The notes under the pieces were generated by a model. The model was not told the origin of the DNA. It was given only the letters and a program-made list of their open reading frames with translations, and made no database searches. Both the position numbers and the translations under genes were made by a program. 64,000 bases of DNA, taken from the NCBI RefSeq assembly GCF_030269685.1, contig NZ_BSTT01000010.1, forward strand, positions 1-64,000, read 5' to 3'. Shown piece after piece: positions 33,114 to 64,000 of this stretch. The DNA is from Actinomycetospora sp. NBRC 106378 (GTDB taxonomy: Bacteria > Actinomycetota > Actinomycetes > Mycobacteriales > Pseudonocardiaceae). Every line of letters starts with the position of its first letter. Positions within the stretch are counted from its first letter, which is position 1.

Positions 33114-33173
33114 CGCGAGGGTGACGTCAGACAGGTCCGGACGGGCCCGGACCTGCCTCATGTGCATCTCGCG
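33114..33173. repeat. 60-bp palindromic element (20-20-20), diverged copy
   Basis: Right arm TGCCTCATGTGCATCTCGCG (33154-33173) is closely related to the right arms at 52321 and 52404. The left arm (33114-33133) keeps CGCGAGG, ACGT and the terminal CA. The 20-bp loop (33134-33153) is itself palindromic (GGTCCG...CGGACC). It sits between galE and dtxR. See the two copies near 52.3 kb. Confidence 0.7.
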
Positions 33174-52179: not shown

Positions 52180-52280
52180 TCTCTGCGCGTCGCGCACACA
52201 CTCGGGCCGGTGGACGGACCGGTCCTGGCGACCCCTGCGCGTCACGCACACGTCTCCGGATCGAGGACGTCCCGCGTGAC

Positions 52281-52340
52281 CGCGAGGTGCACGTGGGGCA
52301 GGTTCACGGGTTGCCTGGCATGCCTGGTGTGCACTTCGCG
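52281..52340. repeat. 60-bp palindromic element (20-20-20), copy A
   Basis: Left arm CGCGAGGTGCACGTGGGGCA (52281-52300), 20-bp loop, right arm TGCCTGGTGTGCACTTCGCG (52321-52340). The arms pair with five mismatches. The left arm is identical to that of copy B. Confidence 0.85.
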
Positions 52341-52363
52341 AACGGGGCGGCGGGCCTGGCGTT

Positions 52364-52423
52364 CGCGAGGTGCACGTGGGGCAGGTTCACGGGTCGCGCG
52401 GCATGCCTCACGTGCACCTCGCG
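52364..52423. repeat. 60-bp palindromic element (20-20-20), copy B
   Basis: Left arm CGCGAGGTGCACGTGGGGCA (52364-52383), 20-bp loop (52384-52403), right arm TGCCTCACGTGCACCTCGCG (52404-52423). Nineteen of twenty positions pair, and the remaining one would be a G-U pair in RNA. Direct repeat of copy A at an 83-bp spacing. Confidence 0.9.
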
Positions 52424-52607
52424 GAGGCGCGGGCCCCGAATTGCGGGAGTGTGGGCTCGATGCGCCGGGGCGGCCAGGTCGATCGTCGACCCTTCTCGGA
52501 TGTGTGCGGGACGCGCAGGGGTCGGCCGGATCGTTGGGCCGAGTCCCCGAAGTGTGTGCGGGACGCAACCCTGTCTCGACGGGTTCCGCGGGCGCAGACT
52601 GCGGGAC

Positions 52608-63767: not shown

Positions 63768-63899
63768 TCGCTCTCCTCCTCGTGAGACGGCGTCGGCCCG
63801 GGGGCGGGGCAGGAGGAGGCGACGAGGCGCAGGTGCGCACCCGCGACCGTCCCACGAGGTCCCCGAGCCGCGCGGGCCGGATCTCGGCGCGCGCACCGG
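63768..63899 (-). promoter_or_regulatory. metE expression platform and ribosome-binding site
   Basis: The 132 bases between the aptamer end and the GTG carry GC-rich self-complementary stretches (for example CCCGGGCC near 63796-63803) and the strong Shine-Dalgarno GAGGAGGAGAG (about 63771-63781). Either a terminator or sequestration of this site could be the switch; the sequence does not decide. Confidence 0.55.
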
Positions 63900-64000
63900 T
63901 GGCAGGTCTTCGGACTCGTGGGCGTCGTCCTCGCTCCTACCGGCCGTCGCTTCCCGGACCGGGGTCCAGTGCTCGGTGACGGCTCTCGTTCCCACTCACC
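63900..64000 (-). ncRNA. Cobalamin riboswitch, 5' part cut by the window edge
   Basis: Minus-strand leader of metE reads GTGAGTGGGAACGAGAGCCG, then GAGCACTGGACC, GGTCCGGGAAGCGACGGCC, and ends with ACGAGTCCGAAGACCTGCC (63919-63901). These are the conserved junction and P3-P6/3' elements of actinobacterial B12 riboswitches; the first third (CCGGTGCGAATCC-like) would lie beyond 64000. Regulates metE negatively with adenosyl- or methylcobalamin. Confidence 0.93.

Follow-up and report, generated by a model that had tools for sequence, protein, structure and literature searches.

The window analyzed here, a stretch of 64,000 nucleotides from Actinomycetospora sp. NBRC 106378, harbors three copies of a 60-bp palindromic element consisting of two 20-bp arms around a 20-bp loop. 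A single copy (33114..33173, no strand assigned) is located between two minus-strand genes for an epimerase and an iron-dependent repressor, 24 bp beyond the stop codon of the latter. The other two make up a head-to-tail pair on the plus strand, copies 1 (52281..52340) and 2 (52364..52423) being separated by a 23-bp spacer (52341..52363, no strand assigned) and flanked by plus-strand genes specifying a DUF1365 protein (PF07103; 51430..52179) upstream and a GNAT acetyltransferase (PF00583; 52608..53135) downstream. The arms of copy 2 are 20-bp inverted repeats with a single mismatch, a G-T (G52379 versus T52408). The first-pass annotation gave the 20-20-20 geometry and the coordinates correctly for all three copies, rightly described one loop (33134-33153) as itself palindromic, and counted the copies properly, as an arm-matrix scan of the window reveals no fourth. 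The conserved arm that it quoted, CGCGAGGTGCACGTG, is matched by the arms of the 33114 element in part only, and its statement of completely different loops is incorrect, since the 52281 and 52364 copies have their first 11 loop bases in common.

Across the whole window, Rfam models at gathering threshold yielded no match over the 60-bp elements; the only match is a cobalamin riboswitch at 63884-64000 (minus strand), cut by the window end. A second repeat family with the core GTGTGCGSGACGCGCAGGGGTCG occurs on either side of the paired 60-mers, at 52187-52251 (minus) and 52502-52566 (plus). In all sequence collected, 18 of the 23 steps shorter than 140 bp between same-strand neighbors of this repeat measure exactly 52 bp. 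Many single GTGTGCGSGACGCGCAGGGGTCG matches may be due to chance, since 43 of the 90 motif matches fall inside predicted genes.

The unit length is strikingly constant. Under one threshold applied over 56-65 bp, 230 of 250 distinct elements from the genus measure 60 bp, with 16 of 61 bp and two each of 59 and 57 bp. In 1.264 Mb of sequence from four contigs, window included, the element ends CGCGAG...CTCGCG occur 22 times at a total length of 60, against a background mean of 2.3 per length (12-205) and a next commonest length with 11 occurrences. An arm matrix seeded from the arms of 60-bp pairs retrieved 38 pairs at the 60-bp geometry from the same sequence, whereas 60 other spacings averaged 0.03 pairs each. 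Chance or base composition as the origin of the palindromes is ruled out by these two counts. Solitary arms are rare, namely, 3 versus 65 within 60-mers at a score of ≥20 (0 in random sequence) and 9 versus 74 at ≥16 (1 in random sequence). Recurrence of the 60-bp geometry throughout the sampled parts of the genome and the genus, together with this scarcity of arms outside the 20-bp spacing, upholds the initial idea that the arms are recognized as a spaced pair. The oriented consensus of 161 non-redundant 60-mers reads about CGCGAGGGTCACGTGAGGCA (arm), GGTYCCGGGGCCCSCGGRCC (middle), and TGCCTGGTGTGCACCTCGCG (arm), with left and right arms differing at positions 13-15. Beyond the 60-bp edges, conservation drops to a weak fringe of a few bases. 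Because the oriented consensus includes the middle (approximately GGTYCCGGGG), this part of the element is not free, contrary to what had been supposed.

The family extends well beyond the three window copies, as a genome-wide search for arm pairs confirmed. In the host genome (6.31 Mb in 52 contigs; G000 in the comparisons below), the arm pattern with ≤3 mismatches returned 155+133 matches versus 88+73 for the reversed pattern, a covariance-model search returned at least 150 strand matches, and extrapolation from the 38 elements in 1.264 Mb predicts about 190 copies. A gene of the window has its five best relatives all in Actinomycetospora, a genus of soil bacteria. All 18 Actinomycetospora genomes contain the family, as judged by strand matches, in which a palindrome counts on both strands. 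Seven are high-copy genomes with 98 to at least 150 strand matches (G000, G002, G005, G009, G010, G011, and G017), one is intermediate (G006, 66 matches), and ten are low-copy genomes (7-37 matches), in nine of which the best match is a 61-bp sister type. When 400 kb from two low-copy genomes were scanned for this sister type, the first pass found a single pair, of 62 bp, before the matrix drifted into coding sequence. Under stricter filters, 24 of 249 genomes of the taxonomic family match, 16 of them Actinomycetospora and the remaining 8 weak. Carriage by phages or plasmids was rejected, given that neither viral_contigs (searched with one exact pattern) nor plasmid and phage collections (blastn) contained matches. 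A literature search for such a 60-bp family in Actinomycetospora brought up nothing relevant in the portions of text that it covered.

When copies were mapped against genes, as the first-pass annotation had proposed, they turned out to be extragenic, mostly convergent, and close past stop codons. Relative to genes predicted with a simple caller written for this work, the 44 elements contained in 2.064 Mb from four genomes distribute as 21 convergent, 19 tandem, and 4 divergent, with none in genes. The full set of 250 elements, whose loci were mostly picked through element matches, comprises 112 convergent, 57 tandem, and 6 divergent cases, 2 in predicted genes, and 73 that were unclassifiable on short loci. 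In convergent regions, the nearest stop codon lies at a median of 17 bp from the element. For the unbiased 1.264 Mb, counting was restricted to intergenic regions measuring 15-450 bp; elements occur in 13 of the 105 convergent ones versus 11 of the 628 others (P = 3.4e-6). Relative to the coding strand, the elements are randomly oriented (24/41). High-copy extragenic location near 3' ends is thus a feature that the 60-mers share with repetitive extragenic palindromes (REPs).

Occupied and empty orthologous sites both exist in related species, as at 33114 and C7:126316. Site 33114 is occupied in the host and empty in G005, G002, and G009, with flanking gene ends 90-96% identical; the empty sites also miss about 20 bp beyond the 60. 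The 52281 pair is common to the host and G005 as 60+23+60, gap-free, and is missing in G002 and G009. The element at C10:73533 is 60 bp long in each of G000, G005, and G009. The C7:126316 site, compared in six genomes, bears two copies in G000, one each in G005, G002, and G017, and none in G009 and G011; G009 (A. soli) has an unrelated perfect 20-bp hairpin in place of the element, and G010 has other sequence there, with no element by eye. At the orthologous convergent site of G017 (L394, C26:165850-166170), one 60-mer has a perfect 18-bp hairpin and a minisatellite built from ACGCCGGG units as neighbors. At two further sites, judged by match coordinates, relatives have other sequence between the flanking genes. 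These occupied/empty comparisons, which leave out C10:135149 and G005:63920, displayed neither clean insertion boundaries nor target-site duplications.

The elements form arrays with preferred spacer lengths. In 99 neighboring pairs, corresponding to 86 unique spacers when same-length spacers ≥70% alike are counted once, lengths peak at 23 and 33 bp, roughly a single helical turn from each other, with 36 of the 86 at 21-25 bp, 20 at 31-36 bp, a few at 13, 42-45, 53, and 63-64 bp, and some between. The commonest spacer, 23 bp, is that of the 52281 pair; array loci were largely chosen via element matches, including 60 short stretches of G000, G005, and G009, and at least L352 came from matches to the pair itself. 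This last locus (G005 C1:4752500-4754000) aligns seven 60-mers with spacers of 63, 21, 23, 63, 23, and 64 bp. Spacer sequence is little conserved between loci, and preferred lengths at unlike sequences provide a direct test of recognition at the duplex level. The best spacer period is 10.2 bp, and after removal of the 22-23 bp spacers, 0 of 5,000 uniform sets equalled the observed strength. Without the 21-25 and 31-36 bp classes, one test gave P = 0.16 and a second, with a window set after the data were seen, P = 0.018 (10/20). Twenty diverged pairs have a best period of 11.0, or 11.5 (the edge of the range) without the 21-25 bp class, rather than 10.2-10.5. The spacing rule therefore rests mainly on two length classes, and helical phasing beyond them is weak. 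Orientation is the same in 76 of 92 neighboring pairs, opposite in 5, and uncalled in 11, and mean neighbor identity is ≥0.80 in every spacer class versus 0.69 for random pairs. Since neighbors share orientation and resemble each other, arrays also grow by tandem duplication, through which part of the spacer regularity may be inherited.

The 60-mer is also a sequence-specific landing site for an IS110-family element at one fixed base. In the host genome, the only PF01548 matches come from a single gene that an IS21-type IstA/IstB pair has cut into two pieces. These pieces match PF01548 and PF02371 and lie inside a 60-mer of a tandem array (L110:1763-5719, i.e., G000 C3:261763-265719). All sequence collected, in which overlapping loci repeat places, was searched with 12-base motifs of both IS110 ends. 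Left-end junctions were uncovered at four distinct points, three in G000 (C3, the C2 end, and the C18 start) and one in G005 (~4,684,608), and each falls on an identical base, after the ...CCTC of the element's last box. Both right-end junctions continue with CTCG, one retaining only the terminal box of the element. Repeated insertion at a fixed position, the mark of IS110 target repeats, is what these junctions display. G005 has seven IS110 matches; among the three covered, two show a junction and the third lies 333 bp, by coordinates, from a partial element match. In the G000 assembly, contigs C2 and C18 (L006 and L043) end ~120-150 bp inside the IS110 left end within a 60-mer, which suggests that further IS110 copies broke the assembly at these points. 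IS110 elements have a core dinucleotide. The recurrent junction is a natural, sequence-defined target and allows a check of the guide RNA.

Collectively, we favor, at a probability of about 0.6, a genus-specific non-coding family of repetitive extragenic palindromes that is REP/BIME-like in behavior and not a RAYT-REP by membership. On double-stranded DNA, a putative protein would recognize both arms together as a single unit, and adjacent units would be kept in approximately the same helical register because this protein, or an insertion complex, contacts neighbors on one face. Units have multiplied locally into the head-to-tail arrays, and the gene-end position would persist because it is harmless there. 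A second role as bidirectional terminator is conceivable, as the gene-end position and the strong predicted folding also fit such a function. A more specific proposal, which we put forward as tentative, holds that the 60-mers are duplex sites of a putative protein, with two 20-bp half-sites at rigid spacing, that assembles along one helix face. One-face assembly would keep neighbors at near-integral helical turns, i.e., with spacers near 13, 23, 33, 43, and 63 bp. If so, the 60-mer would be an element of chromosome organization or recombination for which REPs offer no counterpart, and the GTGTGCGSGACGCGCAGGGGTCG repeat at exact 52-bp steps would obey the same rule.

The arms themselves offer a means to weigh duplex recognition against selection of an RNA stem-loop. 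In the 161 non-redundant 60-mers, most variable positions pair just as often as shuffled partners do, and a mild excess (z > 2) is seen in 3 of 30 pairs (1, 17, and 30; largest z, 2.7); in a smaller set of 38 elements, no pair stood out and position 13 paired below shuffled. When right halves are swapped among the elements, mean folding energy is unchanged, at -35.8 to -35.0 kcal/mol versus -35.3 kcal/mol for the originals. A strong palindrome with little covariation is expected of independent half-sites on duplex DNA; this pattern is easier to reconcile with duplex DNA than with a selected hairpin, without amounting to proof. Little arm covariation likewise speaks against the RNA-processing hairpin maintained by pairing that had been considered at the outset. 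For 10 of the 20 arm pairs, Watson-Crick pairing is found in >80% of copies, which may be enough for a stem. The orientation of wobbles was discarded as RNA proof, since of 96 cells with a wobble or A-C, 73 fall on the majority strand, against a null mean of 71.

Bidirectional intrinsic terminators or 3'-end mRNA hairpins, selected as RNA stem-loops, would account for the convergent-gene bias with its 17-bp median to the nearest stop and for predicted folding energies of -35.3 (consensus strand) and -30.9 kcal/mol (other strand) versus about -22 to -24 kcal/mol for shuffled sequence. Like the bidirectional intrinsic terminators of high-GC bacteria, the 60-mers sit between convergent stop codons and fold strongly in prediction. 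The C7:126316 site, with its unrelated hairpin in G009 and a different hairpin beside the element in G017, and the strong ordinary hairpins of 37 of 92 element-free convergent regions (0 in shuffled sequence) point the same way, as does the mild pairing excess at 3 of 30 pairs. However, other hairpins are not significantly rarer beside the element (3/13 versus 37/92; P = 0.36), so functional replacement of ordinary hairpins by 60-mers was dismissed. The stem shows little compensatory change, its halves can be swapped without energy cost, and loop length and sequence are constrained, needlessly for a terminator. The consensus strand folds better, yet this fitted orientation is random to genes, and head-to-tail arrays, one with seven copies, also count against termination as the selected function. 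Conservation of sequence and length over many sites, with little stem covariation and tandem arrays, also sets the 60-mers apart from the terminators of high-GC bacteria. We consider this explanation unlikely.

It is still more improbable that the 60-mers are ultra-short MITEs, i.e., terminal inverted repeats of a DDE or other transposon served by a transposase elsewhere in the genome. As in MITEs, the elements are short and non-coding, end in 20-bp terminal inverted repeats, and are polymorphic for presence or absence, with strong copy-number differences within the genus. Nonetheless, no obvious target-site duplication was read by eye in the flanks, solitary arms are few, and no autonomous parent was found; in the large stretches, only two neighboring element pairs lie 300-8000 bp apart, one enclosing the IS110 inserted in an element and the other a gene that weakly matches AbiEi, and neither enclosed sequence resembles such a parent.

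The closest known systems are the REP/BIME families of Gammaproteobacteria and other bacteria. REPs are described, in the sections of PMC3733652 available to us, as high-copy extragenic palindromes of 20-40 bp that occur near stop codons, mostly in convergent and unidirectional regions, and form dimers or clusters, and the accessible part of PMC1525189 presents them as targets of IS elements. Interspersion, high copy number, convergent 3'-end bias, arrays, and IS110 insertion are common to both, so a classical REP/BIME family mobilized in trans by a REP-associated tyrosine transposase might come to mind; it is very improbable, as the Y1 (RAYT) domain PF01797 was detected in 5 of 14 controls but in 0 of 18 genus genomes (host included), the end and flank consensus has no GTAG or CGTC tag, and the unit measures 60 bp instead of the 20-40 bp given in those sections of PMC3733652. 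REP-RAYT membership fails on transposase and tag, and BIME membership on alternating orientation, the units being head-to-tail (76/92 in the same orientation). From the original proposal of REP/BIME- or MITE-like elements mobilized in trans, the interspersed REP/BIME-like family is retained and the Y1/TnpA-REP transposase is not. Similarly, Stenotrophomonas REPs, the palindromes of which are said in the excerpted text of PMC2817692 to be preserved by complementary changes, differ from the 60-mers with their little arm covariation. REP-like biology would extend to a genus of high-GC actinobacteria in which no tyrosine transposase, the enzyme credited with REP spread elsewhere, was found, so short palindromes may have a further means of dispersal. 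Finally, the 60-mers parallel the target repeats of IS110/IS1111 elements, exemplified by ISPpu9 in REPs in the text available from PMC8450116, in that insertion occurs at one defined base, here within another repeat family.
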